Shown here one piece after another: positions 15,407 to 62,494 of a DNA stretch of 64,000 bases (positions are counted from its first letter, which is position 1; each line of letters opens with the position of its first letter). The stretch is from Artemia franciscana (taxonomy: Eukaryota > Arthropoda > Branchiopoda > Anostraca > Artemiidae). The notes under the pieces are model-generated. The model ran no database searches. It was not told where the DNA came from and saw only the letters and a list, made by a program, of their open reading frames with translations. Made by a program: the position numbers and the translations under genes. The DNA is taken from NCBI RefSeq assembly GCF_032884065.1, contig NW_027066312.1:310001-374000 (forward strand), given 5' to 3'.

Positions 15407-16401
15407 CGGAAAAAAGAAGTCGGAAGCACTAAAAATTAAAATAATCTCTCATTTATTAAATTGAAATAAGAAGGAAAAGTACTATTTCAGCACAAAATTA
15501 AATAAAAAAAAACAAGTTGATAACTTCTAAGACCACACTGCCTTTCCATGACGAAAGTAAAACAGTTCAAAATAGGGATGAAGCTTTCTTTTTTTTTTTT
15601 TAGTTAACATCTTTTATTAGGATGGGTTTCTATGTAAAGATGTTTCTATTGAAGAAATAATTTCTTCTACTGGGACTTTATTAGTTTTAAAGCAAAATTT
15701 TTGACCTTTTTCTAATACGGACTTTTCTTGTAACGTTAAGGTCCTTGATGAAAAGTTAATTACACCTGGTCAAAGAGTTGACGAAGGTATTACGGCTTTA
15801 TTTTCAGATAATTTTGAAAACTTTTTAAGTAATCTTTCTCTGGAAAGGTGAAAGTCATGATTGAAATGATTTCTTGATGTTTGTTGAATAAAACAAAAAT
15901 CACTTGCACTCACCTTTTTTGATATAATATTTTCCAGGAAAAGTCAATTAAAAGAAAAAGTCAATTCTGTTCACTGTCAATTAAAAGGTTCCATCCCTAT
16001 TTTGAACTGTTTTACTTTCGAAAAAAAAAGTTTTTTTTAACTTCAAGTAAGGAGCGACATTAAAGCTTAAAATGAACAAAAACCATTCCATATATGAAAG
16101 GGTTTATCCCCTCTTCAACACCTTGCTCTTTACGCTAAAAGTTTGTTTTATTGTTTTAAAAAGTAGAATTGTGATAAAGAGTCAAACTTTAGCGTAAAGA
16201 GCGGGTTTTGAGGAGGGGATAGCCCCTTTCGTATACGGAATATTTTTTTTTCGTTTTAAGTTTTAATGTCGCTCCTTACTTGTGGTTAAAAAACCTTGTT
16301 TTTTTATTTAATTTTGTGCTGAGATAGCGCTTTTCCGTCTTATTTCAATTTAATAAATGTGAGATTATTTTAATTTTTAGTGCTTCCGACTTCTTTTTTA
16401 A
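15407..16401. mobile_element. Foldback element enclosing PLE end fragments and a family P hairpin
   Basis: Outer inverted repeat of about 95-100 bp: left arm 15407-15512, right arm 16305-16401 (AAAAGAAGTCGGAAGCACTA and its complement, ending at CAGCACAAAATTAAAT). Inside the left arm at about 15511-15575 is the complement of a PLE start (ATGGAAAGGCAGTGTGGTCT, encoding MERQCGL) with the AAAACAGTTCAAAATAGGGA leader. At 15985-16018 is the inverted partner of that leader. A family P hairpin fills 16020-16300. This looks like successive insertions, with family P landing in or joining a PLE-derived palindrome. Confidence 0.6.
15600..15850 (+). pseudogene. Possible coding remnant of unknown origin
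   Basis: Between the PLE-like ends, one + frame reads DGFLCKDVSIEEIISSTGTL. A second, about 100 bp on, reads ITPGQRVDEGITALFSDNF. Both look protein-like (acidic and hydrophobic alternation, no low complexity) but are separated by a stop and a frameshift. I do not recognise the family. It may be cargo or the interior of the PLE-related element. Confidence 0.25.
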
Positions 16402-21611: not shown

Positions 21612-23584
21612 CTATTTTAGGTGAAAACTTGTAAAACAGTTGTGATCTGAGTTCAAACACAGTCGAACTTTGCACTTCGAACACAGAATTTGACTGGTTC
21701 CACCTATAATGCACTTCTCATAGCAACACCTTCCCTTTTCAGTTATATCCGGAAAATGCGAGGTCTGGTCAAACCTCACTGATTCCGAAGGCATCCCGTC
21801 TCACGAGGTAGTCGTATTGCGCTTGGTCACTGATAAGGATGGTCTTCCAACTTGAGGACTTTGAGATATGCCAGCAAGAACCAACCCACGAGCAATGTCC
21901 ATTTTGAACTACAGCAGAGACATGTGATGAACATTGATCTGCTTACACTGTCGGCGGTGTATTATCCAGGCGTTGTTCACAGCCATGTCAAAGAAGTAGT
22001 ACACAATCATCATATACCATTTCTTAGATCGAATGTCAGTCCGGTAAAGCTCCAGGAACATGTCAGCAAGATCTACGCCCCCCATTGAATTGTTGTAGTC
22101 ACGGACGATTCGGGGGCGATCAACTTTGACGTATTTCCCTGTTGTGCCATCCCATCTCTGAAGAAGCCAAATGGACTGGTTTGTTGTCATACCATTTTAC
22201 TACCGATACATCTGAATGTCTTTCAAAACGGAAGTCCACCGACCCTCGTCCATTCTTCTTTACGTTGGCGTCGGTATCTAGAACAGCGCCCCTCATTCTG
22301 TTGCTGCGTATCGTACCACATGACTAGATGCCATATTCAACCCAGAGCTTGTGAATGAGATGGATGCCAGTATATAAGTTACCAAAGAACAACTTGAAGT
22401 TCATGAGCCTTGGCAGATTTTCTTCAAGCCGAAGGACAAAGTCAGTACCTTGGCCAAGCTCAGAAATTTCAACAGCTCCTTTTGTTGTATATATGTCTAT
22501 GTCACAAACTATTCCGCTGATGCCGGCTCTCGTGAAAACCTTTACACCCCACGAGTGGGACTTGTCCTTCAAGTACTGTCGAAATCCAATTCTTCCTTTG
22601 AATGGGATCATCTGTTCGTCAACACTTCGGATCTCGTAAGGGTCTTTTTTTCAGATTCTTCCTGAATGCATCGTATAGTCTTCTGATCTTGAACTGTTTA
22701 TCATGACCAACCCAACCTTTCGGTATCATTGAAGTTTCATCGCAAATGTGGAAAAAAGACCTCAAGCTGATAAACCTATTTCAGCTCATGGTATCAGCCA
22801 CCGGGGAATATCGTATTCCATTCTCCGGGTACATTCTAATAGCCGGAGTTTGAGAATGCTCATAAGCATTTGAACTCCAAGAAATCTGCGCAGCTCTTCA
22901 AGGGAAAGTTCCAGAGCAAGATTCTTCTTTCTCGTGGCATTCAGATTCGTTTGGTCTACAATCTTGGAAAAAATGTCTTCTGTGATAAACATTCGGAAGA
23001 GATCAAGTGGCGTTTGTACCTCGTCATAGTGTGGCATAGAACCCTTCCATGTAATATCTCCAGGTTCGGGCTCTGTTTTTATCCACTTGTATTGCTTTGC
23101 CTCCTTCGCTACCTTCTTTTTTGCTTCTGGTTTTCCCGTGACCTGAGGAGCATCAGTTGGAGTTACTAGACCGGCCACTACTTGGGAAGGAGCCTTTTTT
23201 GAGCTCTTGTAAAGACAAAGGGTTCAGCAGGTGCGGTAACTGCTGCTGACTGTATTGAAGAAGAAGCTCACACTGGTGCTGATGATGTGTGTTTGACGTT
23301 ATTGCATCATTCAAGCCCGGGAGAGGCAAATCGAATTAATCCGTGTCATTGCCATTGTCTAACTCGAACCTTCGAAGTATTGCTAAAGGGATGTCATCTG
23401 TGTGTTCGATATCCTCTTCATCTCTTCCGTCTTCATTGCCATAACAGTTGAAAGAACGTAAAGGCTGAAATTCTTGATCTGGATTGTCTGGTGCCCAGTT
23501 TGGGTCGTCGTCGTCGGAAGAGATATCGAGATCTGAATCACAATCGGGTATAAATAAAAGCTTTGCTGCTTCTTCTGAAGTCAT
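21612..23584 (-). pseudogene. piggyBac transposase pseudogene (DDE_Tnp_1_7)
   Basis: Cut-and-paste DDE transposase, broken into several frames. In coding order: an acidic N-terminus with KLLFIPDCDSDLDISSDDDD (23584-23336); the N-terminal domain with PLDLFRMFITEDIF and LSLEELRRFLGVQMLMSILK (23178-22786); a piece with MIPKGWVGHDKQFKIRRLYD; SVDEQMIPFKGR with the first catalytic Asp (near 22600-22640); KSHSWGVKVFTRAGISGIV; and FKLFFGNLYTGI, where the second catalytic Asp is Gly (22381-22383). Next come GRGSVDFRFERHSDVSVVKW (near 22230), VRDYNNSMGGVDLADMF with the third Asp (near 22090), KKWYMMIVYYFFDMAVNNAW, and a Cys-rich C-terminus with CCYEKC, CSKCKVRLC and CFTSFH (21794-21612). At least four frameshifts or stops are present, one in an A-run near 22650. 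Confidence 0.85.
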
Positions 23585-28749: not shown

Positions 28750-30300
28750 CTGGTTAGTGATGATGATGGTTGGACATCTCAATGGCATCCCACTCAGTTC
28801 ACCATAGCTTTGATGACCATTCTCCATCAATGGCTCTTTTGAAGGCAGCAGTACTGGGGGTAGTGACTGCTTCTTTGGTGAGCAAATTCCATGAACTCAC
28901 TATTCTGTTAGTGAAGAAGTTATTGTGTAGTCTAGTGGCAGCTTTCTTTTGATATAGTTTTCCAACTATGCCCCCTAGTTCTGGCAGATCAGTCAAGTTG
29001 AAATGGCCTATTTAATAGAGAGTTAGAATTCAGGAGCTTTTGCATCATAATAATATCACACCTTTTATGTCTGTAGACAAGAGTGGGGAGTTTCAGCTTC
29101 TTCAGACAGGATGAGTAGTTTAAGTATTTGCATCCTTCAATTGCTTTTGTAGCCTGTCTCTGAGTTGCTTCTAACTTCTGCTGGTCACCTTTGTTGAGGG
29201 GGCTAGCAACACACATGCCAAACTCCAAATTAGGCCTGACCAATGCCTTATATAATTTAGTCGTCACCATAGGTGACCTACTAGTGATTGTTCTTTTTAT
29301 TGCCAAGGGTTTGGAGTACTTTGGCTATAGCTGTCTGTGTGTGCATAGTGAATCTTAATTCTTTATTGACTATGACCCCCAAGTCTCTCTCCACTTCAGA
29401 TGAGATAATAGTCTGTTTCATTCCATCCTACCCTAGCATATGATAAGGGCATTTCTCATTTTTCTTTCCAAAGTGGATTGTTCAACATTTATTTACATTA
29501 AATTCAAGCCTCCACAAAGTCACCCACTGGGAAAGTACCCATAGGTCATTCTACATAGAGGCTCTCTTATTAGGTTTATTGACAGGTCTAATGAGTTTGG
29601 GGTCATCAGCATAAAGACTTATTTAATTTTTGACTGTGGTTGGTGCATCATTAATATAAATTTTGAATAAAGTTGGTCCCAAGATGGGTCCCTGGGGTAC
29701 TCCACTTAATACTTCCACTTCTTCTGAAAAGAATACCTCTCCATTTTTTCCAAATATTTTAACCTTTTGCTTTCTCCTAGAAAGAAACCAAAGCACCCAC
29801 TCTACAATTTCATTATGTATTTCAATCACAAATAAGTTGGTCCCTAGTTGACAGTGACATACTTTATCAAAGGCTTTTGCAAAAACCAATAGAACCAAGT
29901 CAACAGGGATTACTTGATCTAGATGCTCAGTAACATAATCATACACATCAATCAAATCAGTCTCAACCAACCATCCATGTCTGAGGCCATGCTGACAATC
30001 ACTGAGCAGCTCATTGGTGGTCAGGTGTTTGACAATGTGAGTATTCACAATTCCTTCTAAGATTTTACCAACTACAGATGTAAGACTAATGGGTCAATAA
30101 TTGGAAATGCTGTTACAGCTACCCCCTTTTGTGTAGAGGTGTAATGCTAGCATTCTGCCAGTCTTAAGGAATTTTCTTAGTATCAAGAGACTTTTGAAAC
30201 ATGTTTGTAAGGGGAAGGGCTATTTCCACATGAGCTTCTTTCAATACTCGTGGGTGAACTTCATCAGGGCCAACTGATTTGTTAGGATTAAGCATTCATA
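28750..30300 (-). pseudogene. CR1/Jockey-like LINE reverse transcriptase
   Basis: Fragmented pol ORF2 on the - strand. In coding order: a block near 30280-30120 with EVHPRVLKEAHVEIALPL-like words and DWQNASITPLHKRG; an open frame 30048-29623 with LLVFAKAFDKVCHCQLG (motif A) and EVLSGVPQGPILGPTLFKIY (motif B), then YINDAP; SLYADDPKLI (motif C, near 29610, Ala-Asp-Asp retained); EVERDLGVIVNKELRF; 29306-28989 with LYKALVRPNLEFGMCVASPL and LEATQRQATKAIEGCKY; and 28996-28799 with FFTNRIVSSWNLLTKEAVTT. In-frame stops separate the pieces, so it is inactive, although the RT core is well preserved. It was probably inserted as a 5'-truncated copy. Confidence 0.85.
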
Positions 30301-31640: not shown

Positions 31641-34430
31641 GAGTCAGAGGTAAGAGGCTTGGGACTGTCTGTGCAGGATTTCAACTGTTGTTGGTAAAAG
31701 AGCATCACCAAGTGTTGAAAACCATGCTGTGAACAAGATGGGCCCAGGATTGCACAAAGCCTCCAACTTACTGGATGTCCCAGAGACTTCTTGCTGTCTG
31801 GTCCTAAGCCGGCTTAAGCACTTCAGTGTAGACTTGAGAAGATATGTTGATCCCTGTCCTGCACTGGTATCTGGGATCATTGCTTTTCCTGAGGCCAAAA
31901 TAATTTCAAAGATTTAAAAATAACGAAAATTGGAATGTTATGATGTTAAAAAATGACTATCACATTGACATTTTGACTAACAAATTCAGATGGTTTGAAC
32001 TGGATTTCTTAGGAGTTTCAGAAACTCATATCCCAGGGATAGGAAGCATGAAATTAGGTGACATAGAATTTGTTTACTCAGGCAGGAAGGATGGGGTACA
32101 TAGACAGGGAGTAGGGCTCATGATGAATAAGGAAGCTGCTAAGTCTTGTTTAGGCTGGGAAGGTATTAATAATAGAATACTTTTTGCTCATTTTTTGACT
32201 AAGAAGTTCAGTATATCAGTTATAGTAGTATATGCCCCGTGTTGAACCAACTGACAGAGAAATAGGGATAGATGGTATCCTATTCTAGGTAAATTTGGTG
32301 TAGGAAAAGAAAACAGTAATGACTATAGATTTTTGCAGTTTTGTAGATATAATAACCTAGTTATAACCAATACAGTGTTTGGTCACAAAATGGCCTGTAA
32401 GTTGACATGGTATTCACGTGGTTGTACGACAGCAAATCTTATTGATTATGTTATTGTAAACCAAAGACTAGCAGGATCAATACAAGATACTAGGGTGTAT
32501 AGGAGTACTGTTTTTGCTGTTAAAAGTAAAGATCACCATCTAGTAGTGTCTAAGGTTAATTTAAAGCTGAAATTTCAGAAGGGTAACTACCTTTCAGAAA
32601 GTTATGATGTTGGTAGACTCCAGGATGAAAATTTGAGAAAAACCTTCCAGGAACAGTTGAATACTAAACTTGAGAGTTTGAAATTTGACAATGTGGAAGA
32701 TGGATGGAATAATTTTAGAAAAACAATTTGCGAAGTTGCTGATGGTGTTTTAGGGAAGAGTGCTAAGACTGCAACTAGGAATATTAGTGAAAAGGAAAAA
32801 GTTAAAGAAAGATGGGCAGAACATTTTGAGAATGTGTTATGTCAAGATACAGTTGCAGGAAAAGATATAGATGAAAATGAAAAACTTTGTGAAATACCTT
32901 GGATATGAAGGAAGATTTGTTTTGTGAGGAAGAATTAGCAACAGTACTAAAAGGATTAAAAAATAATAAGGCTCCAGGTGCTGATAGTGTGATAATGAGT
33001 TTCTTAAATATGGTGGCTCTGAGGTTATGAATAAGCTACTGAAGATTATGAATATGATTTTTGAAAAAAGAGGAAGTACCTAATGATTTTAGGAAAACCT
33101 TAATTAAACCACTGCATAAGAAAGTTGAAAAGAGTGAGTGTCGTAATTATTGCGGCATTAGTTTGGTCTCTGTAGGTAGTAAATTACTTAGTAATATAAT
33201 ACTTTTTAGACTGAGAGATGCTGTAGACAAAGTTTTAAGGGAAGAACAGTGCAGTTTTAGAAAAGGTAGAGGATGTGTCGACCAAGTTTTCATTCTAAAG
33301 TTAATAATTGAGAAGTCCTTTGTTGTCAAACACCTTTGGTCCTCAGTTTTATCAATTATGAGCAAGCTTTCGATTCTGTTGATAGAAGAGCATTAGCAAA
33401 CGTCTTATCCTAATATGGTATAGCATAAAAATACATTAAAGTGATTTGTGCTATGTACGAGATTAATACTGCTGCAGTTAAGGTGGGAAATGAGGTTAGC
33501 AACTGGTTTTGTACTAAAGCAGTGTTGTGTTCTATCCCCCTATATATGGATCATTTTGATGGACTTCATCTTAAGGAGCACTGGAAAGGCAATTTGAGAC
33601 CATGGAATCAAATGGGGAGGAAAAACTCTCCTGGACTTGTGTGAGCAAAATTAATGAATTTTTAGAGGTTTTTCAAGTTCAGGGTGCTAGAATAGGCTTG
33701 AAAATTAATGTTAGGAAGACTAAGTCACTAATGCTAGGAATAAGTGAAGATGAAAAGGTGATGTTGGGTAACGAAAAGGTGATGTTGGGTAACGAAAAGA
33801 TTGATCAGGTTGGCAGCTTCACCTACCTTGGTAGTATTATTAGTAAAGACGGTGGGAGCAGGGAAGATGTTAAAAGTGGAATAGCTAAGGTTCAGGGTAT
33901 TTTTCACAGTAAAAAAAGTTTGGAAGAATAAAAAGATTAGTCTGCAAACCAAGATTAGAATATTGGAACCTACAGTGATGACAGTGGTCAAATATGGCTC
34001 TGAAGCACGGGCGCTCTAAAAAGCAGATGAAAATTTACTAGATGTTTTCCAGAGAAATTGCCTACAGACCGTTCTGGGTACCCGGCTGACTGATCGTATT
34101 TCAAACAGTAGGTTGTACAAAAACTGTGGTTCAATCCCGCTTTCTAGGGCTATAATGAAAGAAAGGTTGAGATGGCTAGGCCACGTTATGCAGATGAGGG
34201 ATGACAGATTGCCTAAGATTGTCCTTTTTGGCCAACTGTCTGGGGTTACACGGAAAGCAGGTCGTCCTTGTCTGGTTTAGGAGGATATCATAAATAAAGA
34301 CTTAAAGGAAATGGGAACTTCCTGGGATGCCTTGAATAGATTGGGTTGGAGGAGGAGCGTACATAGCTGTGTTCGCCTCAGGCGGCTTAGTGCTGCTGTG
34401 AGTTATTATTATTAGTAGTAGTAGTAGTTG
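31641..34430 (+). pseudogene. RTE/BovB-like LINE, endonuclease plus reverse transcriptase, decayed
   Basis: Pol remnant of an RTE-clade LINE. The 31940-32245 frame holds the apurinic-type endonuclease start (DFLGVSETHIPGIGSMKLGD, then GVGLMMNKEAAKSCLGWEGI and ISVIVVYAPC). Part of the endonuclease is then missing. The 32333-32908 frame continues with LTWYSRGCTTANLIDYVIVN and a linker with KERWAEHFENVL. Next come LKNNKAPGADSV (near 32960), DFRKTLIKPLHKK and ECRNYCGISLVSVGSKLLSN (33061 on), and FRKGRGCVDQVFILKLIIEK. The block GLKINVRKTKSLMLG, then SFTYLGSIISKDGG, lies at 33602-33931. RLRWLGHVMQMRDDRLPKI lies near 34165-34220. The element ends in a trinucleotide tail (TTATTATTATTAGTAGTAG) at 34400-34428. 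Multiple frameshifts and stops are present. Confidence 0.85.
33758..33799 (+). repeat. 21-bp in-frame tandem duplication inside the LINE ORF
   Basis: Two identical 21-bp units, 33758-33778 and 33779-33799, add a second VMLGNEK heptapeptide upstream of the SFTYLGSI block. Confidence 0.9.
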
Positions 34431-51085: not shown

Positions 51086-51208
51086 AGCCTGTTGACAACT
51101 TGCACCACCAAAAGATTGTCAAAGCTGCAGCTGGCTTTGCCCATTCTTTAGCTCTCGGTGAGTGGGGACAAATTTTCAGCTGGGGATGGGATGCCTCCGG
51201 ACAACTAG
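51086..51208 (+). CDS. Herc4: HERC4-like gene, exon 3
   Basis: The acceptor TATTCCAG ends at 51085 and the donor TAG/GTAAGT starts at 51209. The 123-nt phase 1-1 exon encodes EPVDNLHHQKIVKAAAGFAH followed by SLALGEWGQIFSWGWDASGQ and LG. This is the next RCC1 repeat (G-x-x-H-S-L-A-L, then G-x-(I/V)-(F/Y)-x-W-G, and G-Q-L-G). The split codon CCA-G/AG-CCT gives P-E-P across the exon 2-3 join, as expected for this family. Confidence 0.85.
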
Positions 51209-51331: not shown

Positions 51332-51345
51332 TTTACACCTGGGTA
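51332..51345 (+). repeat. PLE array target-site duplication, left
   Basis: TTTACACCTGGGTA, identical to 62264-62277. The leading TTT could also be element sequence at the right end, so the true duplication is 11-14 bp. Confidence 0.85.
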
Positions 51346-51448
51346 AAAATAGCGACGAAGACCACACTGCCTTTCCATAACAAACAAATACAACGTAGAA
51401 ACAATAGGGAAAGTTTTTTCAAGACAATGGAAATTATTTATGTAGATA

Positions 51449-51479
51449 TTTCGGCCCTATGTCCAAGGGCCGTATTCAG
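51449..51479 (-). ncRNA. Hammerhead-like core, unit 1 (core mutated)
   Basis: Same hairpin as the other units, but the box reads CTGAATA instead of CTGAAGA because of a change at 51474 (A on the + strand, C in the other - strand copies). This alters G8, a residue essential for hammerhead cleavage. Confidence 0.45.
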
Positions 51480-51681
51480 CACAATACAATACTATATATA
51501 TATATAAAAGAACTTACATCAAATTGTGAGAATTAAAACTGAATATAAAAACACTTATTAAAACAATTTTTTTTTAAAAATATAGCCCTAGCATCCTTAC
51601 TTCAGCGAAGTTCAACCAGGACTGGCGAAAAGAATGAAATGAAGAAATATAAACTCATTCAAACTAAAGAGAATAAAATGA

Positions 51682-54294
51682 TTAGATGCAATTTCTTAAA
51701 GCTAATCTTGCTTGTTTAGCAGCCTGTCTCAAAGGCCTTTTCGTAGTTGGTTCAGTACTATTATAAATTGGTTTAGTAAAATATTTTGTTAGATCATTTT
51801 TAATTAAATTTGAGTATAAAGAATTTAGTGAGTATTCCCCCAAGTCCCTGTTCAAAGAAATATTTTTATTGATTTTGAGATTAATTTCAATTGATTCTCG
51901 AACCACCTGTTTTATTCCCAAATCATTACTAATGAGTGAAGAGTTTTCAAAAAGTATCATGTGGGACGGATTATTAAAAATATGCCAACCTAGAGCAGAA
52001 TCAAAGGAATTGTTGGAACCATTTGAAATTAAGGCCTTGTCTATGTCATTTTTATGCTGATGTAACCTTTTGTCTAGATTCTGATGGGTCCTGCCGACAT
52101 AGTATTTTCCGCAATCACAGGGTATTTGATAGACCCCTCTTTGGCGAGTAACTGGGGTCTTATCTTTACCCGAATTTAAGAAATTGATGATTTTAAAATT
52201 ATTAGTAAAAACTACGTACAGATTATTTTTTGTGCAAATATTTTTTAATTTTGTTGTAATCTTTGGGATATACGGAAGATAGACAATATTTGAGGGCTTA
52301 TCAATAGCCTCACATTGTGAAGTATCTTCTTCGATTTTACAAGAATGTCTTTTTATTCTACGGCTAATTATTTTATTTACAAAAGGAATGGGGTATCCAT
52401 TACCAAAAAGAATATCTCTGATAAAATTTATTTCTGCATTTATATATGAATGGGAGCAAATATTTAGGGCACGATCAATGAGGGAAATTACAACTGCTCT
52501 TTTAACTTGTGGGGGGTGATTTGAATTAAAGTGAAGATATCTATTGTTTTGTGTTGGCTTTCGATATATAGTAAAATCCAGTTCATCAGCTTTACGAATA
52601 ATTAATACATCTAAAAACGGTAGTTTATTTTCAATTTCAACTTCAAGGGTGAACTGCAAATTTCGGTCATAAGTGTTAAGATGATCTAAGAAGCCCCGAA
52701 GTTCAGCTTCCCCATAATTCCAAAGTGAAATTACGTCATCCATATAACGACCCCAATAGACATGTTTTAGAAAATAAGAATTCAATGCCCAATTCTCAAG
52801 ATTCTCGACGTAAATATTTGCTAGTAGCCCGGATAAAGGTGCCCCCATGGGTAATCCATTTTTTTGTTGATAAAAAGAATCGCGAAATTGAAAATACATA
52901 GAAAACTTATTACAAATTTTAACAAGAGTCATTAAAACTTCACAATCAATTCCTGTCGCTGAAGTCTCGATCAAGTGGTAATTTTCTTCTATTTTGTTTT
53001 TTAATAATTCCTCTGAAATAGTTACATCTATATTTGTGTACATGGAAACAATGTCGAAACTACTAACTATTGTGTTTTCTGAAATACTTGTGTTGCTAAG
53101 TTTTTTAATCAAATCTGCCGAGTTATGAATATAGGAATTTTGAGAATACAATAAAGGTTTGAAAGCTGCACAAAGCCATTTTCCAATATTGGCAGCGGGA
53201 GCTTTAGTACAAGCCACAATAGGTCTTAAGGGAATACCCTGTTTATGTATTTTTGGTAAACCGTAGAGTTTAGGACAGAAACTACCACGGGGAAAAAATT
53301 TATTGTATAGTTGTGGGGTGATTTTACCATTTTGTTTTAGCTGCTTTAATTCATTTATAATATTATTAGTGAACTGATCAGTAGGATCATGAGTTATTGT
53401 TTGATATGTAATTGTGTCATTTAAATGCGAGAAAATTTTGTTGTCATAGTCTGTTGTATTCATGACAACAAGTGAATTGCTTTTGTCTGCTTTAGTTATT
53501 ATAATAGAAGGATCTTTTCGGAGATTAGATAGTATTTTTATGTCATGCAGATTTTCCGGTGTGGAATTAGTAGGAGGCTTAAACTTTTTTTGGCTATTAT
53601 AGAGGATATTTATTAGACCTGATCTAACTTCATCCGGGTTAGAGACAGAAGGATAGTGTTTATGCAAAGCGGACTCTAGAGAGGAAACTATATCTGCCAC
53701 AGGAACCTGTTTCGGTAGAAAAGAAAATTTTGGACCCTTTTCTAGTGTTTCGATTTCCTGGGGTTCCAATGTTTTAGAAGAGAGGTTAACGATAGCAGGC
53801 CCAGGAGTGAATCTTGGAGAATAAATACGGTTTCTCATCGAAGATTCATTTCGTAAGCCCTCTAATTTTTTATAGAGGCGTTCCTTGGACAAGCGAAAAT
53901 CGTGGCTAAACAAATTCCTTTCTAATCTAACAACTTGAGCAAAATCAACGGTGGACAGGTTTTCCAGCAAAAAAGTTTCCAACGATTTTCTCTCTGAAGA
54001 AATAATATGTCGTTTCTGTTTTTTGTCCTTAATAATATGGACTAGGGTTTTTAACTGTAGTGTATGGGCAAATTGCGCTTCTTTTCGGGTATTTAAATGT
54101 AATTTATATCTTAAAGACTTGGGAATAAGGTTTTCCTTTCTACAGGATTCTAAAAATTTTTGTTGATTGATAATATTAGCATGTTTTTTACCTAGACTAA
54201 TAAAATAAAAGATATCATAGGTCAACTGCTCCCCATAAGCTAGACGAAAATAGCGACGAAGACCACACTGCCTTTCCATAACAAACAAATACAA
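51682..54294 (-). CDS. Penelope-like reverse transcriptase/GIY-YIG endonuclease, copy 1
   Basis: Intact 870-residue ORF starting MYLFVMERQCGLRRYF. It may start in practice at the internal Met of MERQCGL, which is also conserved at PLE remnants elsewhere in the window. The RT domain spans roughly residues 240-640: SSFDIVSMYTNI (motif A, Asp414), NGLPMGAPLSGLLANIY (motif B, 479 on), YMDD (517-520), and LPFLDVLIIRK. The GIY-YIG endonuclease is near 718-830: GVYQIPCDCGKYYVGRT (720-736) with a C-x-C pair (726, 728), Arg743, His747 and a conserved Glu at 800 or 803. The protein copies element RNA at the nick its endonuclease makes. The ORF lies antisense to HERC4. It is identical in protein sequence to copies 2 and 5, so likely functional or very recently so. 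Confidence 0.95.
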   Translation of the reverse strand: MYLFVMERQCGLRRYFRLAYGEQLTYDIFYFISLGKKHANIINQQKFLESCRKENLIPKSLRYKLHLNTRKEAQFAHTLQLKTLVHIIKDKKQKRHIISSERKSLETFLLENLSTVDFAQVVRLERNLFSHDFRLSKERLYKKLEGLRNESSMRNRIYSPRFTPGPAIVNLSSKTLEPQEIETLEKGPKFSFLPKQVPVADIVSSLESALHKHYPSVSNPDEVRSGLINILYNSQKKFKPPTNSTPENLHDIKILSNLRKDPSIIITKADKSNSLVVMNTTDYDNKIFSHLNDTITYQTITHDPTDQFTNNIINELKQLKQNGKITPQLYNKFFPRGSFCPKLYGLPKIHKQGIPLRPIVACTKAPAANIGKWLCAAFKPLLYSQNSYIHNSADLIKKLSNTSISENTIVSSFDIVSMYTNIDVTISEELLKNKIEENYHLIETSATGIDCEVLMTLVKICNKFSMYFQFRDSFYQQKNGLPMGAPLSGLLANIYVENLENWALNSYFLKHVYWGRYMDDVISLWNYGEAELRGFLDHLNTYDRNLQFTLEVEIENKLPFLDVLIIRKADELDFTIYRKPTQNNRYLHFNSNHPPQVKRAVVISLIDRALNICSHSYINAEINFIRDILFGNGYPIPFVNKIISRRIKRHSCKIEEDTSQCEAIDKPSNIVYLPYIPKITTKLKNICTKNNLYVVFTNNFKIINFLNSGKDKTPVTRQRGVYQIPCDCGKYYVGRTHQNLDKRLHQHKNDIDKALISNGSNNSFDSALGWHIFNNPSHMILFENSSLISNDLGIKQVVRESIEINLKINKNISLNRDLGEYSLNSLYSNLIKNDLTKYFTKPIYNSTEPTTKRPLRQAAKQARLALRNCI

Positions 54295-54582
54295 CGTAGA
54301 AACAATAGGGAAAGTTTTTTCAAGACAATGGAAATTATTTATGTAGATATTTCGGCCCTATGTCCAAGGGCCGTCTTCAGCACAATACAATACTATATAT
54401 ATATATAAAAGAACTTACATCAAATTGTGAGAATTAAAACTGAATATAAAAACACTTATTAAAACAATTTTTTTTTAAAAATATAGCCCTAGCATCCTTA
54501 CTTCAGCGAAGTTCAACCAGGACTGGCGAAAAGAATGAAATGAAGAAATATAAACTCATTCAAACTAAAGAGAATAAAATGA
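54295..54582 (-). repeat. Inter-ORF (pLTR-like) segment, units 1/2
   Basis: 288 bp between consecutive ORFs, reading on the - strand from the stop of unit 2 to the start of unit 1. It has a 3' UTR with TTTTAATAAGTGTTTTTATA, a TATATATATATA run, the hammerhead-like hairpin and a leader with GTTTCTACGTTGTATTTG. It serves as both the end of one unit and the start of the next, as pLTRs do in Penelope elements. Confidence 0.8.
54350..54380 (-). ncRNA. Hammerhead-like core, unit 2
   Basis: Complement reads CTGAAGA (matches CUGANGA), one extra C, a 6-bp helix II (GGCCCT with AGGGCC) around a UGGACAU loop, then GAAA. PLEs are known to carry hammerhead ribozymes in their pLTRs. I could not draw a convincing helix I, and helix III would be only 2 bp, so activity is uncertain. 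Confidence 0.5.
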
Positions 54583-57195
54583 TTAGATGCAATTTCTTAA
54601 AGCTAATCTTGCTTGTTTAGCAGCCTGTCTCAAAGGCCTTTTCGTAGTTGGTTCAGTACTATTATAAATTGGTTTAGTAAAATATTTTGTTAGATCATTT
54701 TTAATTAAATTTGAGTATAAAGAATTTAGTGAGTATTCCCCCAAGTCCCTGTTCAAAGAAATATTTTTATTGATTTTGAGATTAATTTCAATTGATTCTC
54801 GAACCACCTGTTTTATTCCCAAATCATTACTAATGAGTGAAGAGTTTTCAAAAAGTATCATGTGGGACGGATTATTAAAAATATGCCAACCTAGAGCAGA
54901 ATCAAAGGAATTGTTGGAACCATTTGAAATTAAGGCCTTGTCTATGTCATTTTTATGCTGATGTAACCTTTTGTCTAGATTCTGATGGGTCCTGCCGACA
55001 TAGTATTTTCCGCAATCACAGGGTATTTGATAGACCCCTCTTTGGCGAGTAACTGGGGTCTTATCTTTACCCGAATTTAAGAAATTGATGATTTTAAAAT
55101 TATTAGTAAAAACTACGTACAGATTATTTTTTGTGCAAATATTTTTTAATTTTGTTGTAATCTTTGGGATATACGGAAGATAGACAATATTTGAGGGCTT
55201 ATCAATAGCCTCACATTGTGAAGTATCTTCTTCGATTTTACAAGAATGTCTTTTTATTCTACGGCTAATTATTTTATTTACAAAAGGAATGGGGTATCCA
55301 TTACCAAAAAGAATATCTCTGATAAAATTTATTTCTGCATTTATATATGAATGGGAGCAAATATTTAGGGCACGATCAATGAGGGAAATTACAACTGCTC
55401 TTTTAACTTGTGGGGGGTGATTTGAATTAAAGTGAAGATATCTATTGTTTTGTGTTGGCTTTCGATATATAGTAAAATCCAGTTCATCAGCTTTACGAAT
55501 AATTAATACATCTAAAAACGGTAGTTTATTTTCAATTTCAACTTCAAGGGTGAACTGCAAATTTCGGTCATAAGTGTTAAGATGATCTAAGAAGCCCCGA
55601 AGTTCAGCTTCCCCATAATTCCAAAGTGAAATTACGTCATCCATATAACGACCCCAATAGACATGTTTTAGAAAATAAGAATTCAATGCCCAATTCTCAA
55701 GATTCTCGACGTAAATATTTGCTAGTAGCCCGGATAAAGGTGCCCCCATGGGTAATCCATTTTTTTGTTGATAAAAAGAATCGCGAAATTGAAAATACAT
55801 AGAAAACTTATTACAAATTTTAACAAGAGTCATTAAAACTTCACAATCAATTCCTGTCGCTGAAGTCTCGATCAAGTGGTAATTTTCTTCTATTTTGTTT
55901 TTTAATAATTCCTCTGAAATAGTTACATCTATATTTGTGTACATGGAAACAATGTCGAAACTACTAACTATTGTGTTTTCTGAAATACTTGTGTTGCTAA
56001 GTTTTTTAATCAAATCTGCCGAGTTATGAATATAGGAATTTTGAGAATACAATAAAGGTTTGAAAGCTGCACAAAGCCATTTTCCAATATTGGCAGCGGG
56101 AGCTTTAGTACAAGCCACAATAGGTCTTAAGGGAATACCCTGTTTATGTATTTTTGGTAAACCGTAGAGTTTAGGACAGAAACTGCCACGGGGAAAAAAT
56201 TTATTGTATAGTTGTGGGGTGATTTTACCATTTTGTTTTAGCTGCTTTAATTCATTTATAATATTATTAGTGAACTGATCAGTAGGATCATGAGTTATTG
56301 TTTGATATGTAATTGTGTCATTTAAATGCGAGAAAATTTTGTTGTCATAGTCTGTTGTATTCATGACAACAAGTGAATTGCTTTTGTCTGCTTTAGTTAT
56401 TATAATAGAAGGATCTTTTCGGAGATTAGATAGTATTTTTATGTCATGCAGATTTTCCGGTGTGGAATTAGTAGGAGGCTTAAACTTTTTTTGGCTATTA
56501 TAGAGGATATTTATTAGACCTGATCTAACTTCATCCGGGTTAGAGACAGAAGGATAGTGTTTATGCAAAGCGGACTCTAGAGAGGAAACTATATCTGCCA
56601 CAGGAACCTGTTTCGGTAGAAAAGAAAATTTTGGACCCTTTTCTAGTGTTTCGATTTCCTGGGGTTCCAATGTTTTAGAAGAGAGGTTAACGATAGCAGG
56701 CCCAGGAGTGAATCTTGGAGAATAAATACGGTTTCTCATCGAAGATTCATTTCGTAAGCCCTCTAATTTTTTATAGAGGCGTTCCTTGGACAAGCGAAAA
56801 TCGTGGCTAAACAAATTCCTTTCTAATCTAACAACTTGAGCAAAATCAACGGTGGACAGGTTTTCCAGCAAAAAAGTTTCCAACGATTTTCTCTCTGAAG
56901 AAATAATATGTCGTTTCTGTTTTTTGTCCTTAATAATATGGACTAGGGTTTTTAACTGTAGTGTATGGGCAAATTGCGCTTCTTTTCGGGTATTTAAATG
57001 TAATTTATATCTTAAAGACTTGGGAATAAGGTTTTCCTTTCTACAGGATTCTAAAAATTTTTGTTGATTGATAATATTAGCATGTTTTTTACCTAGACTA
57101 ATAAAATAAAAGATATCATAGGTCAACTGCTCCCCATAAGCTAGACGAAAATAGCGACGAAGACCACACTGCCTTTCCATAACAAACAAATACAA
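54583..57195 (-). CDS. Penelope-like reverse transcriptase/GIY-YIG endonuclease, copy 2
   Basis: Same 870-residue protein as copy 1, 2901 bp further on and head-to-tail with it. Motifs and catalytic residues are identical (YMDD at 517-520, GVY at 720-722, YVG at 732-734). The only coding difference noticed is a silent base at 56185. Its ORF start overlaps the beginning of the partial third unit, so its leader is supplied by that unit. Confidence 0.95.
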   Translation of the reverse strand: MYLFVMERQCGLRRYFRLAYGEQLTYDIFYFISLGKKHANIINQQKFLESCRKENLIPKSLRYKLHLNTRKEAQFAHTLQLKTLVHIIKDKKQKRHIISSERKSLETFLLENLSTVDFAQVVRLERNLFSHDFRLSKERLYKKLEGLRNESSMRNRIYSPRFTPGPAIVNLSSKTLEPQEIETLEKGPKFSFLPKQVPVADIVSSLESALHKHYPSVSNPDEVRSGLINILYNSQKKFKPPTNSTPENLHDIKILSNLRKDPSIIITKADKSNSLVVMNTTDYDNKIFSHLNDTITYQTITHDPTDQFTNNIINELKQLKQNGKITPQLYNKFFPRGSFCPKLYGLPKIHKQGIPLRPIVACTKAPAANIGKWLCAAFKPLLYSQNSYIHNSADLIKKLSNTSISENTIVSSFDIVSMYTNIDVTISEELLKNKIEENYHLIETSATGIDCEVLMTLVKICNKFSMYFQFRDSFYQQKNGLPMGAPLSGLLANIYVENLENWALNSYFLKHVYWGRYMDDVISLWNYGEAELRGFLDHLNTYDRNLQFTLEVEIENKLPFLDVLIIRKADELDFTIYRKPTQNNRYLHFNSNHPPQVKRAVVISLIDRALNICSHSYINAEINFIRDILFGNGYPIPFVNKIISRRIKRHSCKIEEDTSQCEAIDKPSNIVYLPYIPKITTKLKNICTKNNLYVVFTNNFKIINFLNSGKDKTPVTRQRGVYQIPCDCGKYYVGRTHQNLDKRLHQHKNDIDKALISNGSNNSFDSALGWHIFNNPSHMILFENSSLISNDLGIKQVVRESIEINLKINKNISLNRDLGEYSLNSLYSNLIKNDLTKYFTKPIYNSTEPTTKRPLRQAAKQARLALRNCI

Positions 57196-57250
57196 CGTAG
57201 AAACAATAGGGAAAGTTTTTTCAAGACAATGGAAATTATTTATGTAGATA

Positions 57251-57281
57251 TTTCGGCCCTATGTCCAAGGGCCGTCTTCAG
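57251..57281 (-). ncRNA. Hammerhead-like core, unit 3
   Basis: Identical to the core at 54350-54380 and positioned 2901 bp from it. It lies just upstream of the copy 2 ORF. Confidence 0.5.
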
Positions 57282-57483
57282 CACAATACAATACTATATA
57301 TATATATAAAAGAACTTACATCAAATTGTGAGAATTAAAACTGAATATAAAAACACTTATTAAAACAATTTTTTTTTAAAAATATAGCCCTAGCATCCTT
57401 ACTTCAGCGAAGTTCAACCAGGACTGGCGAAAAGAATGAAATGAAGAAATATAAACTCATTCAAACTAAAGAGAATAAAATGA

Positions 57484-57742
57484 TTAGATGCAATTTCTTA
57501 AAGCTAATCTTGCTTGTTTAGCAGCCTGTCTCAAAGGCCTTTTCGTAGTTGGTTCAGTACTATTATAAATTGGTTTAGTAAAATATTTTGTTAGATCATT
57601 TTTAATTAAATTTGAGTATAAAGAATTTAGTGAGTATTCCCCCAAGTCCCTGTTCAAAGAAATATTTTTATTGATTTTGAGATTAATTTCAATTGATTCT
57701 CGAACCACCTGTTTTATTCCCAAATCATTACTAATGAGTGAA
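57484..57742 (-). pseudogene. PLE ORF 3' fragment, unit 3
   Basis: Codes for the last 86 residues of the PLE protein (SSLISNDLGIKQVVRESIEI to the stop), cut off at the inversion point. It contains the endonuclease C-terminus only. Confidence 0.9.
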
Positions 57743-57747
57743 GAAGA
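57740..57747. other. Inversion junction of the PLE array
   Basis: - strand unit sequence GTGAAGA joins, through an AG of unclear origin, to AAAACAAAATAG of the + strand unit. There is little or no homology, suggesting end joining or template switching rather than homologous recombination. Confidence 0.85.
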
Positions 57748-59065
57748 AAACAAAATAGAAGAAAATTACCACTTGATCGAGACTTCAGCGACAGGAATTG
57801 ATTGTGAAGTTTTAATGACTCTTGTTAAAATTTGTAATAAGTTTTCTATGTATTTTCAATTTCGCGATTCTTTTTATCAACAAAAAAATGGATTACCCAT
57901 GGGGGCACCTTTATCCGGGCTACTAGCAAATATTTACGTCGAGAATCTTGAGAATTGGGCATTGAATTCTTATTTTCTAAAACATGTCTATTGGGGTCGT
58001 TATATGGATGACGTAATTTCACTTTGGAATTATGGGGAAGCTGAACTTCGGGGCTTCTTAGATCATCTTAACACTTATGACCGAAATTTGCAGTTCACCC
58101 TTGAAGTTGAAATTGAAAATAAACTACCGTTTTTAGATGTATTAATTATTCGTAAAGCTGATGAACTGGATTTTACTATATATCGAAAGCCAACACAAAA
58201 CAATAGATATCTTCACTTTAATTCAAATCACCCCCCACAAGTTAAAAGAGCAGTTGTAATTTCCCTCATTGATCGTGCCCTAAATATTTGCTCCCATTCA
58301 TATATAAATGCAGAAATAAATTTTATCAGAGATATTCTTTTTGGTAATGGATACCCCATTCCTTTTGTAAATAAAATAATTAGCCGTAGAATAAAAAGAC
58401 ATTCTTGTAAAATCGAAGAAGATACTTCACAATGTGAGGCTATTGATAAGCCCTCAAATATTGTCTATCTTCCGTATATCCCAAAGATTACAACAAAATT
58501 AAAAAATATTTGCACAAAAAATAATCTGTACGTAGTTTTTACTAATAATTTTAAAATCATCAATTTCTTAAATTCGGGTAAAGATAAGACCCCAGTTACT
58601 CGCCAAAGAGGGGTCTATCAAATACCCTGTGATTGCGGAAAATACTATGTCGGCAGGACCCATCAGAATCTAGACAAAAGGTTACATCAGCATAAAAATG
58701 ACATAGACAAGGCCTTAATTTCAAATGGTTCCAACAATTCCTTTGATTCTGCTCTAGGTTGGCATATTTTTAATAATCCGTCCCACATGATACTTTTTGA
58801 AAACTCTTCACTCATTAGTAATGATTTGGGAATAAAACAGGTGGTTCGAGAATCAATTGAAATTAATCTCAAAATCAATAAAAATATTTCTTTGAACAGG
58901 GACTTGGGGGAATACTCACTAAATTCTTTATACTCAAATTTAATTAAAAATGATCTAACAAAATATTTTACTAAACCAATTTATAATAGTACTGAACCAA
59001 CTACGAAAAGGCCTTTGAGACAGGCTGCTAAACAAGCAAGATTAGCTTTAAGAAATTGCATCTAA
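57745..59065 (+). pseudogene. 5'-truncated PLE ORF, unit 4
   Basis: Encodes PLE residues from about 434 to 870 (NKIEENYHLIETSATG to the stop). It keeps motif B, YMDD and the full GIY-YIG domain but lacks the N-terminus and motif A. An ATG at 57671 upstream is in frame by chance and adds 25 antisense-derived residues. That chimera is not a natural gene start. Confidence 0.9.
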
Positions 59066-59267
59066 TCATTTTATTCTCTTTAGTTTGAATGAGTTTATAT
59101 TTCTTCATTTCATTCTTTTCGCCAGTCCTGGTTGAACTTCGCTGAAGTAAGGATGCTAGGGCTATATTTTAAAAAAAAAATTGTTTTAATAAGTGTTTTT
59201 ATATTCAGTTTTAATTCTCACAATTTGATGTAAGTTCTTTTATATATATATATAGTATTGTATTGTG

Positions 59268-59298
59268 CTGAAGACGGCCCTTGGACATAGGGCCGAAA
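59268..59298 (+). ncRNA. Hammerhead-like core, unit 4
   Basis: + strand CTGAAGA, extra C, GGCCCT helix, GAAA. Lies in the 288-bp segment between the truncated ORF and the full + strand ORF. Confidence 0.5.
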
Positions 59299-59353
59299 TA
59301 TCTACATAAATAATTTCCATTGTCTTGAAAAAACTTTCCCTATTGTTTCTACG

Positions 59354-61966
59354 TTGTATTTGTTTGTTATGGAAAGGCAGTGTGGTCTTCGTCGCTATTT
59401 TCGTCTAGCTTATGGGGAGCAGTTGACCTATGATATCTTTTATTTTATTAGTCTAGGTAAAAAACATGCTAATATTATCAATCAACAAAAATTTTTAGAA
59501 TCCTGTAGAAAGGAAAACCTTATTCCCAAGTCTTTAAGATATAAATTACATTTAAATACCCGAAAAGAAGCGCAATTTGCCCATACACTACAGTTAAAAA
59601 CCCTAGTCCATATTATTAAGGACAAAAAACAGAAACGACATATTATTTCTTCAGAGAGAAAATCGTTGGAAACTTTTTTGCTGGAAAACCTGTCCACCGT
59701 TGATTTTGCTCAAGTTGTTAGATTAGAAAGGAATTTGTTTAGCCACGATTTTCGCTTGTCCAAGGAACGCCTCTATAAAAAATTAGAGGGCTTACGAAAT
59801 GAATCTTCGATGAGAAACCGTATTTATTCTCCAAGATTCACTCCTGGGCCTGCTATCGTTAACCTCTCTTCTAAAACATTGGAACCCCAGGAAATCGAAA
59901 CACTAGAAAAGGGTCCAAAATTTTCTTTTCTACCGAAACAGGTTCCTGTGGCAGATATAGTTTCCTCTCTAGAGTCCGCTTTGCATAAACACTATCCTTC
60001 TGTCTCTAACCCGGATGAAGTTAGATCAGGTCTAATAAATATCCTCTATAATAGCCAAAAAAAGTTTAAGCCTCCTACTAATTCCACACCGGAAAATCTG
60101 CATGACATAAAAATACTATCTAATCTCCGAAAAGATCCTTCTATTATAATAACTAAAGCAGACAAAAGCAATTCACTTGTTGTCATGAATACAACAGACT
60201 ATGACAACAAAATTTTCTCGCATTTAAATGACACAATTACATATCAAACAATAACTCATGATCCTACTGATCAGTTCACTAATAATATTATAAATGAATT
60301 AAAGCAGCTAAAACAAAATGGTAAAATCACCCCACAACTATACAATAAATTTTTTCCCCGTGGTAGTTTCTGTCCTAAACTCTACGGTTTACCAAAAATA
60401 CATAAACAGGGTATTCCCTTAAGACCTATTGTGGCTTGTACTAAAGCTCCCGCTGCCAATATTGGAAAATGGCTTTGTGCAGCTTTCAAACCTTTATTGT
60501 ATTCTCAAAATTCCTATATTCATAACTCGGCAGATTTGATTAAAAAACTTAGCAACACAAGTATTTCAGAAAACACAATAGTTAGTAGTTTCGACATTGT
60601 TTCCATGTACACAAATATAGATGTAACTATTTCAGAGGAATTATTAAAAAACAAAATAGAAGAAAATTACCACTTGATCGAGACTTCAGCGACAGGAATT
60701 GATTGTGAAGTTTTAATGACTCTTGTTAAAATTTGTAATAAGTTTTCTATGTATTTTCAATTTCGCGATTCTTTTTATCAACAAAAAAATGGATTACCCA
60801 TGGGGGCACCTTTATCCGGGCTACTAGCAAATATTTACGTCGAGAATCTTGAGAATTGGGCATTGAATTCTTATTTTCTAAAACATGTCTATTGGGGTCG
60901 TTATATGGATGACGTAATTTCACTTTGGAATTATGGGGAAGCTGAACTTCGGGGCTTCTTAGATCATCTTAACACTTATGACCGAAATTTGCAGTTCACC
61001 CTTGAAGTTGAAATTGAAAATAAACTACCGTTTTTAGATGTATTAATTATTCGTAAAGCTGATGAACTGGATTTTACTATATATCGAAAGCCAACACAAA
61101 ACAATAGATATCTTCACTTTAATTCAAATCACCCCCCACAAGTTAAAAGAGCAGTTGTAATTTCCCTCATTGATCGTGCCCTAAATATTTGCTCCCATTC
61201 ATATATAAATGCAGAAATAAATTTTATCAGAGATATTCTTTTTGGTAATGGATACCCCATTCCTTTTGTAAATAAAATAATTAGCCGTAGAATAAAAAGA
61301 CATTCTTGTAAAATCGAAGAAGATACTTCACAATGTGAGGCTATTGATAAGCCCTCAAATATTGTCTATCTTCCGTATATCCCAAAGATTACAACAAAAT
61401 TAAAAAATATTTGCACAAAAAATAATCTGTACGTAGTTTTTACTAATAATTTTAAAATCATCAATTTCTTAAATTCGGGTAAAGATAAGACCCCAGTTAC
61501 TCGCCAAAGAGGGGTCTATCAAATACCCTGTGATTGCGGAAAATACTATGTCGGCAGGACCCATCAGAATCTAGACAAAAGGTTACATCAGCATAAAAAT
61601 GACATAGACAAGGCCTTAATTTCAAATGGTTCCAACAATTCCTTTGATTCTGCTCTAGGTTGGCATATTTTTAATAATCCGTCCCACATGATACTTTTTG
61701 AAAACTCTTCACTCATTAGTAATGATTTGGGAATAAAACAGGTGGTTCGAGAATCAATTGAAATTAATCTCAAAATCAATAAAAATATTTCTTTGAACAG
61801 GGACTTGGGGGAATACTCACTAAATTCTTTATACTCAAATTTAATTAAAAATGATCTAACAAAATATTTTACTAAACCAATTTATAATAGTACTGAACCA
61901 ACTACGAAAAGGCCTTTGAGACAGGCTGCTAAACAAGCAAGATTAGCTTTAAGAAATTGCATCTAA
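59354..61966 (+). CDS. Penelope-like reverse transcriptase/GIY-YIG endonuclease, copy 5
   Basis: Third intact 870-residue ORF, sense with respect to HERC4. Protein identical to copies 1 and 2. Codon positions used for motif numbering: Asp414 of motif A at 60593, YMDD from 60902, GVY from 61511, Glu800 near 61751. It is preceded by a complete inter-ORF segment from unit 4. Being in the sense orientation inside an intron, it could be present in HERC4 pre-mRNA. Confidence 0.95.
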   Translation: MYLFVMERQCGLRRYFRLAYGEQLTYDIFYFISLGKKHANIINQQKFLESCRKENLIPKSLRYKLHLNTRKEAQFAHTLQLKTLVHIIKDKKQKRHIISSERKSLETFLLENLSTVDFAQVVRLERNLFSHDFRLSKERLYKKLEGLRNESSMRNRIYSPRFTPGPAIVNLSSKTLEPQEIETLEKGPKFSFLPKQVPVADIVSSLESALHKHYPSVSNPDEVRSGLINILYNSQKKFKPPTNSTPENLHDIKILSNLRKDPSIIITKADKSNSLVVMNTTDYDNKIFSHLNDTITYQTITHDPTDQFTNNIINELKQLKQNGKITPQLYNKFFPRGSFCPKLYGLPKIHKQGIPLRPIVACTKAPAANIGKWLCAAFKPLLYSQNSYIHNSADLIKKLSNTSISENTIVSSFDIVSMYTNIDVTISEELLKNKIEENYHLIETSATGIDCEVLMTLVKICNKFSMYFQFRDSFYQQKNGLPMGAPLSGLLANIYVENLENWALNSYFLKHVYWGRYMDDVISLWNYGEAELRGFLDHLNTYDRNLQFTLEVEIENKLPFLDVLIIRKADELDFTIYRKPTQNNRYLHFNSNHPPQVKRAVVISLIDRALNICSHSYINAEINFIRDILFGNGYPIPFVNKIISRRIKRHSCKIEEDTSQCEAIDKPSNIVYLPYIPKITTKLKNICTKNNLYVVFTNNFKIINFLNSGKDKTPVTRQRGVYQIPCDCGKYYVGRTHQNLDKRLHQHKNDIDKALISNGSNNSFDSALGWHIFNNPSHMILFENSSLISNDLGIKQVVRESIEINLKINKNISLNRDLGEYSLNSLYSNLIKNDLTKYFTKPIYNSTEPTTKRPLRQAAKQARLALRNCI

Positions 61967-62168
61967 TCATTTTATTCTCTTTAGTTTGAATGAGTTTATA
62001 TTTCTTCATTTCATTCTTTTCGCCAGTCCTGGTTGAACTTCGCTGAAGTAAGGATGCTAGGGCTATATTTAAAAAAAAAAATTGTTTTAATAAGTGTTTT
62101 TATATTCAGTTTTAATTCTCACAATTTGATGTAAGTTCTTTTATATATATATATAGTATTGTATTGTG

Positions 62169-62199
62169 CTGAAGACGGCCCTTGGACATAGGGCCGAAA
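62169..62199 (+). ncRNA. Hammerhead-like core, unit 5
   Basis: Same intact core as units 2-4, 65 bp from the right end of the array. Confidence 0.5.
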
Positions 62200-62263
62200 T
62201 ATCTACATAAATAATTTCCATTGTCTTGAAAAAACTTTCCCTATTGTTTCTACGTTGTATTTG

Positions 62264-62277
62264 TTTACACCTGGGTA
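62264..62277 (+). repeat. PLE array target-site duplication, right
   Basis: TTTACACCTGGGTA, matching 51332-51345. Confidence 0.85.

Positions 62278-62421: not shown

Positions 62422-62494
<73 letters not shown>
62422..62494. repeat. Poly(A) tract, 73 nt
   Basis: Uninterrupted A-run following CTTTCTCTCTCT, giving a pyrimidine tract then A-run on the + strand. Could be a retroposon tail or slippage. Confidence 0.95.

Follow-up and report, generated by a model that had tools for sequence, protein, structure and literature searches.

Head-to-head copies of Penelope-like elements (PLEs), the "tails" at some of their ends, and the extension of both target strands are already known. In the biochemical report on PAc, a Poseidon element of Anolis carolinensis (PMC11167929), the purified protein, a predicted dimer, cuts and extends both strands and starts reverse transcription at two adjacent internal sites, the stretch between them being the genomic tail. 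For Penelope elements of Adineta vaga (Pen2a and others), the corresponding portion of PMC3846280 describes inverted pseudo-long terminal repeats (pLTRs), most often head-to-head, with target-site duplications (TSDs) of 8-10 bp and a 31-bp tail that is optional on one inverted pLTR, as well as long tandem and inverted structures in Pen3 and Pen4; palindromic inverted junctions were read as self-priming, there on an antisense template. A curation guide, as excerpted, presents inverted pLTRs and 3' extensions as peculiarities of individual copies (PMC8969392). Self-priming was the 2013 proposal for PLE integration (PMC3846280), and the 2024 biochemistry leaves later steps to be validated (PMC11167929). 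Here we analyse a head-to-head PLE array in a 64,000-nt stretch of Artemia franciscana DNA (contig NW_027066312.1, positions 310,001 to 374,000; the window) and compare it with its relatives in the same genome. The near-obligate pairing of one long with one short outer end and the arm-haplotype test reported below are new within the literature searched: the titles and abstract openings do not state such a pairing, and the excerpts seen of PMC12910113 and PMC7229834 do not treat end pairing; early Penelope papers lay outside this search, and a prior mention there is possible.

The window array consists of a 6399-nt arm on the minus strand and a 4520-nt arm on the plus strand, separated by a 2-nt joint and repeating with a period of 2901 nt (Table 1). 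Positions within the 2901-nt unit are numbered from u1, the base after the stop codon, with u304 as the A of the ATG. An earlier interpretation made from the letters alone (the sequence-only reading) had described more than two units on the minus strand joined to about one and a half on the plus strand. Our mapping agrees, with 2.2 and 1.56 units, and moves its switch point from 57742 to 57744/57747. With repeats of thousands of bases the array is not due to chance; its unit number rests on one assembly. The units are nearly identical, as had been claimed, with five base changes in approximately 10.9 kb: 51474 (G to T on the element strand), 56185 (C/T) and, in the right arm, 59171 (one base) and 62071-62072 (two bases), the right-arm changes being shifts at a homopolymer T/A boundary. 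As only these five changes separate its copies, the insertion is young. It contains five pLTR copies and three complete open reading frames (ORFs) of 865 aa from the ATG, which had been called identical; their proteins are, but one silent nucleotide difference exists. Likewise, both outer ends are element 3' ends as proposed, but they lie at different sites 36 nt apart, the left at u336 and the right at u300 (or u297 if the terminal TTT is assigned to the TSD, i.e. 36-39 nt).

Profile searches of ORF copy 3 against Pfam returned RVT_1 (E = 1.8e-11) and GIY-YIG (E = 6.4e-7), both past the cut-off. Because both domains occur in one ORF, the element is an endonuclease-bearing PLE, and it has the single reverse transcriptase (RT)/GIY-YIG ORF, the tandem units creating pLTRs, and the 30-40-nt tail on one outer pLTR that are expected of this group. 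Assignment to the LTR retrotransposons was rejected. Those elements carry GAG and integrase, direct LTRs and a 4-6-bp TSD, whereas here Pfam gave only RVT_1 and GIY-YIG, the TSD measures 11-14 bp and the outer repeats are inverted. Matches in PDB were weak and to RT only (E = 8e-4 and 0.03), and no relative was found in IMG/VR.

The array is flanked by the 14-mer TTTACACCTGGGTA, which is absent from the window beyond these two copies; the TSD is given as 11-14 bp because its first three letters, TTT, are element sequence too. Using the joined flanks to search the same genome, we found an uninterrupted version of the target at C5:33820274-33820527 (loci are cited by our working handles), which aligns over 481 bases at 84% and crosses the insertion point with the 14-mer present once (one mismatch). 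This site is a paralogue and not an empty allele of the window locus; its continuity shows the flanks to be two halves of one target and the 14-mer to have been duplicated. The sequence-only reading was thus right that one 14-bp duplication bounds the whole 10.9 kb, and its claim of insertion as one unit is supported by the TSD, the paralogue, the fixed sites of the outer ends and the match of the arm haplotypes. Across 23 insertions, TSDs measured 10-15 bp (mode 12; G+C 30%), and no clear target motif was seen at either cut of these 23 sites beyond A+T richness.

Next we consider the other copies in this genome (1.27 Gb, 6468 contigs), the scope being one genome and one PLE family; a search with the GIY-YIG model for a second PLE family gave 150 scored matches, counted without division into families. 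Near-complete ORF copies at 97-100% identity numbered at least 52, including the window's three. Loci came from an ORF search and a pLTR search, with ends and junctions fetched in small pieces, and were supplemented by 10 loci, every fifth or tenth entry in the first half of a list of long-end matches, and by two apparent short/short pattern pairs. Head-to-head is defined here as having two canonical 3' outer ends. The sequence-only reading had suggested a genome-wide search for such copies; our survey yielded 33 further loci, 34 insertions with the window. Their ends are either long (u332-342) or short (u297-310), the long ones starting approximately 36 nt deeper in the element; additional letters seen at some ends are TSD letters matching the element by chance. 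One long and one short end were combined in 33 of the 34 insertions, while a single one, at C17:23276954-23287677 (TSD TATTCTATTGAT), was short/short. Independent choice of ends would give at most half mixed pairs (probability of at least 33 mixed pairs in 34 at the most favourable value of 0.5: 2.0e-9). With the set restricted to TSDs of 10-15 bp the count was 28/29, among them the old copy C2:65066627 (81-86%), which has 6 extra letters at its short end. The 34 further include four insertions whose TSD is unresolvable in AT repeats (C1b, C1d, C1e, C21) and C3:811613, which lacks a clean TSD and whose interior was not fetched. Outside the 34 are C110 (right end cut at u215, no TSD), C1514, C5949 and C5307 (contig ends), and C3a, C7b and C1:35.56 Mb (an end not reached); the ORF-search loci C4973 and C5290 are outside the survey.

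Classable loci from the ORF and pLTR searches comprised 30 two-ended, 5 single-armed and 5 probably single-armed insertions, 3 with an internal second arm, and 1 palindrome; about two thirds are therefore two-ended. Head-to-head is the commonest form among the surveyed copies, with unit number varying between the arms of different insertions, and it is described in other PLEs; the window locus is accordingly not the exceptional specimen for which it had been taken. An exact-u336 long-end pattern matched the genome 358 times (reversed control: 0). Among the first 100 long-end matches listed, 11 paired head-to-head with a pattern-matched short end within 15 kb and none with a second long end. 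The figure of 11 is a lower bound because some short ends escape the short patterns; three of these pairs (3234-3236 bp) may be copies of one insertion. Both apparent short/short pattern pairs (C3:811645, C20:15690205), of which one was the sole such pair in the region of these 100 matches and the other came from the whole list, proved long/short when fetched. The 10 sampled long-end loci comprised two long/short insertions, which entered the 34; three whose other end was not reached (C1:165400, C1:52451300, C2:51625630); one head-to-head copy with its other end in a TA repeat (C1:34272500); two that look single-armed (C2:8193050, C2:27919800); and two too divergent to class (C3:10272400, C4:2621420). 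The lack of long/long insertions is conservative, since the pLTR query included the tail and favours long ends; short/short insertions may be under-sampled. A separate observation concerns C1:165476-167700, which has a long end, a probable short end at the fetch border, and an interior without similarity, and is a possible non-autonomous derivative.

These data also bear on assembly artefact, i.e. a false inversion or a wrong unit count. Assemblers struggle with long repeats that are nearly identical, and the 583-kb contig carrying the window is not among the large ones. However, both outer ends are 3' ends beside one TSD, which requires an internal orientation switch, and the junction of the C1:56.69-Mb insertion (u255/u2582) recurs with the same element coordinates on C5949:1-3258. 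Given in addition the distinct unique flanks, the empty-site paralogue and the 33 other two-ended loci, a false head-to-head assembly appears highly improbable. The C5949:1-3258 copy is perhaps the other haplotype of the C1:56.69-Mb insertion.

The relationship between the arms was evaluated by haplotype in the fetched parts of the arm interiors. Twenty-seven insertions classed as young were compared (six more divergent ones were left out) at 14 polymorphic sites, each allele being present in at least two insertions, after masking of the end region and of simple repeats. Within one insertion, the left and right arms agreed in 180 of 180 comparisons (22 informative young insertions, 117 insertion-site combinations) and tandem copies within one arm in 106 of 106, whereas 2441 of 8368 comparisons between insertions disagreed (29%). 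Without masking of the end region, two of 207 comparisons had disagreed, each time at u305. For all 33 insertions, disagreement was 3/750 left-right, 3/406 in tandem and 16% between insertions; with private differences included, arms differ at 0.36% of positions, compared with 1.0% between insertions. Given this agreement, both arms were probably copied from a single RNA or from several transcribed at one source locus.

Such agreement is also relevant to an origin by several events, in which a first insertion was followed by a second one or by pLTR recombination (inversion, unequal exchange). The variable unit number of the arms would suit this history, and later exchange between near-identical units is plausible. 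It is nonetheless improbable as the origin of the array: the window's inner junction contains neither a TSD nor target sequence, a single TSD lies at the outer borders, the arm haplotypes agree, and the same long/short pairing recurs in 33 of 34 loci.

PAc biochemistry and the survey together make two target-primed syntheses, each site being used once, the simplest reading. We therefore propose, with a probability of roughly 0.7, that the window array arose in one PLE integration, by two target-primed syntheses from two fixed start sites followed by end-joining. This proposal starts from direct observations (the anatomy, the TSDs, the empty paralogue, the long/short pairing in 33/34 and the identity of arm haplotypes). 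The PLE enzyme would cut both target strands 10-15 bp apart, as the TSDs suggest, and each freed 3' end would prime reverse transcription of element RNA, one target end from the downstream site at approximately u336, inside the ORF start, and the other from a site approximately 36 nt upstream (u297-305). Both cDNAs would extend toward the RNA 5' end, which in the window array would have taken them past a full unit of a multimeric or circular RNA, and would mostly terminate at points bearing no relation to each other; their far ends would then be joined with little or no overlap, giving a head-to-head array inside one TSD. For the multi-unit arms the template must span more than one unit, and multimeric read-through RNA and circular RNA both fit. 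The scheme presumes that the same RNA, or RNAs of one source locus, served both syntheses, that these were simultaneous, that a paired (dimeric) RT complex gave each end its own start site, and that a repair-type join, by a presumed joining enzyme, completed the process. Synthesis from both sides of the cut had been favoured before and is supported by the TSD, the paralogue, the two fixed start sites and the shared arm haplotype; template switching, the other route then offered, is retained as a possible way of joining the two cDNAs. Whether PLE integration normally involves two primers, with a paired RT complex, one RNA and one cut end per adjacent site, is a tentative generalisation with somewhat less than even odds. 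If true, a normal PLE insertion would arise head-to-head from the outset, its outer ends one long and one short, and inverted pLTRs and "optional tails" would be two visible halves of one obligatory step instead of single-copy peculiarities.

Inner junctions were compared in 29 copies, three of them from insertions outside the 34 (C110, C1514, C3a). Gap or overlap ranged from -13 to +27 nt at 28 junctions; in the exception, C1b, which might represent two separate events, 233 nt of AT repeat and other DNA lie between the arms. Fillers at C20b, C13a and C3e resemble copies of neighbouring letters, as in polymerase-theta-type joining. Since the long-end arm is the longer one in 13 of 26 insertions, no order of priming can be read from arm length.

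Several findings weigh against the two-primer reading. Five insertions are single-armed (C2b, C244, C16b, C17f, C1125) and five others look so, one end of each being either non-canonical or not reached (C18:17.43 Mb, C2:23.88 Mb, C8:22.72 Mb, C19:20.86 Mb, C7:3.47 Mb). In three, the second arm measures 27-48 nt and begins at a non-canonical point inside the element (C8:46.89 Mb, C1c, C4802), and one palindrome, found on both C10 and C19, has two long ends and inverted flanks; counting it as long/long gives 33/35. When private differences are included, many insertions have arms that resemble each other more than most other copies, but C1e, C2a, C5, C16, C17b, C17c and C20a do not, as expected where post-insertion changes weigh. 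Sampling favoured long, young copies. Finally, 10 of the 29 junctions are near-mirror (inner ends within 75 nt), compared with a permutation mean of 2.3 (0 of 20,000 permutations reached 10); for those copies a fold-back or a coupled step is needed beyond two independent cDNAs.

This last excess is what would be expected of self-priming fold-back, in which the 3' end of a single cDNA bends back and primes its own copying to yield the inverted arm, and arms of nearly equal length (within 40 nt) in 4 of 26 insertions point the same way. In its simple form, however, fold-back predicts identical outer ends and a mirror junction, whereas the window arms end 1058 nt apart in element coordinates at their junction, in 19 of 29 junctions the inner ends are over 75 nt apart, and all seven near-mirror copies with both outer ends known (C1a, C1b, C2a, C3b, C7a, C11b, C20a) are long/short. 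The near-mirror copies would be compatible with a fold-back that is succeeded by internal initiation at the short site, or with two coupled syntheses that end together; for the window array we consider fold-back unlikely. The 3203-bp head-to-head PLE palindrome at C10:22377434-22380636 and C19:676659-679861, with the same ends and flanks at both places, looks like a fold-back product and is possibly that or an artefact.

The three internal second arms bring up L1-type twin priming, in which priming from the second nick occurs at any chance position inside the same RNA. L1 twin priming produces head-to-head arms from two primed ends inside one TSD, and only one outer end is an element 3' end. 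The head-to-head orientation, the truncations and the short fillers are similar in our PLE, and in C8, C1c and C4802 twin priming may have operated. The window array shares the head-to-head arms and the single TSD but differs in having an element 3' end on either outer side; all 34 insertions have a second arm that begins at a canonical 3' site, which in the window is the short one. Twin priming of this type is thus an improbable source of the array.

Target-primed synthesis from two fixed sites is close to what the consulted parts of the PAc report describe (PMC11167929). PAc and the window PLE share an ORF with RT and GIY-YIG, tandem units with pLTRs and two adjacent RT starts defining a 30-40-nt tail, and PAc cuts and extends both target strands. 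PAc also has a hammerhead near the ORF start, where our element has a hammerhead-like motif. The start sites of the window family lie approximately 36 nt apart at and just before the ORF start, whereas those of PAc lie at an AC-rich stem loop 111-118 bp into the ORF; in these parts of the report, no start-site difference between strands is reported and the pairing of genomic ends is not analysed. Adineta vaga elements, as far as described in the portion of PMC3846280 consulted, share inverted head-to-head pLTRs, TSDs and a tail on one side. There, the inverted part described for Pen2a is a short pLTR and palindromes at inverted junctions are explained by self-priming, whereas in the window family the arms reach thousands of bases, 19/29 junctions are non-mirror and 33/34 insertions are long/short. 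The family is young and abundant, as the 358 long-end pattern matches illustrate, and carries readable scars in its TSDs, two start sites, junctions and haplotypes. Long/short pairing and shared arm haplotypes constrain the PLE integration mechanism directly, and both can be checked wherever a genome carries young PLEs, as well as with the in vitro system already published.

Table 1. Features of the head-to-head PLE array (positions in the window; u, position in the 2901-nt unit).
Feature	Position	Strand	Remarks
TSD, left copy (TTTACACCTGGGTA)	51332..51345	.	single copy (one mismatch) in uninterrupted paralogue
Left arm	51346..57744	-	2.2 tandem units; junction u2641 to outer end u336 (long start site)
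Outer pLTR with 33-nt ORF-start tail	51346..51681	-	tail 51346-51378
Hammerhead-like motif	51445..51479	-	core change G8 to U at 51474
ORF copy 1, complete (RT + GIY-YIG)	51682..54279	-	domains found on identical copy 3
Internal pLTR	54280..54582	-	
Hammerhead-like motif	54346..54380	-	core intact
ORF copy 2, complete	54583..57180	-	one silent difference at 56185
Internal pLTR	57181..57483	-	
Hammerhead-like motif	57247..57281	-	core intact
5'-truncated ORF fragment, left arm at junction	57484..57744	-	u2641-2901
Head-to-head junction	57745..57746	.	filler AG, 2 nt, separating u2641 (left arm) from u1583 (right arm)
Right arm	57747..62266	+	1.56 tandem units; junction u1583 to outer end u300 (short start site)
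5'-truncated ORF fragment, right arm at junction	57747..59065	+	u1583-2901
Internal pLTR	59066..59368	+	
Hammerhead-like motif	59268..59302	+	core intact
ORF copy 3, complete	59369..61966	+	profile-searched copy
Outer pLTR without tail	61967..62266	+	
Hammerhead-like motif	62169..62203	+	core intact
TSD, right copy (TTTACACCTGGGTA)	62264..62277	.	62264-62266 TTT also matches element

Each pLTR contains, at u203-237, the motif CTGANGA...GAAA, which resembles a hammerhead core. Rfam returned nothing at gathering level for it, relaxed-level matches being far below the gathering scores, and its fold was not clearly better than that of shuffled sequences (z -1.0). The core is intact in 89 of 91 surveyed pLTR copies. 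The only core change in the window array, 51474, falls on the presumed catalytic G8 position of the outermost left pLTR. Selection for a disabled hammerhead upstream of the start site was considered and rejected, as the 91 copies lent a trend no support: changes numbered 2/29 in outer-long, 0/38 in outer-short and 0/24 in inner pLTRs, classes that were made by script and in which a piece cut at a fetch border may count as outer.

Upstream of the array, approximately at 51088-51208 (+), an exon matches RCC1 repeats (Pfam RCC1_2, RCC1) and is followed by a GTAAG splice-donor-like end. The PLE insertion lies approximately 125 bases downstream of this end, in what looks like the intron of a gene. 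Shortly past the right flank is a run of 73 A's (62422-62494). Elsewhere in the window, a degraded fragment of a related PLE at 15439-15937 (-) matches ORF residues 100-207 at 43% identity and, at the ORF start, shares 21 bases with the element. ORF fragments at 22786-23178, 29623-30048 and 32333-32908 resemble, by eye only, piggyBac transposase and LINE reverse transcriptase/endonuclease.

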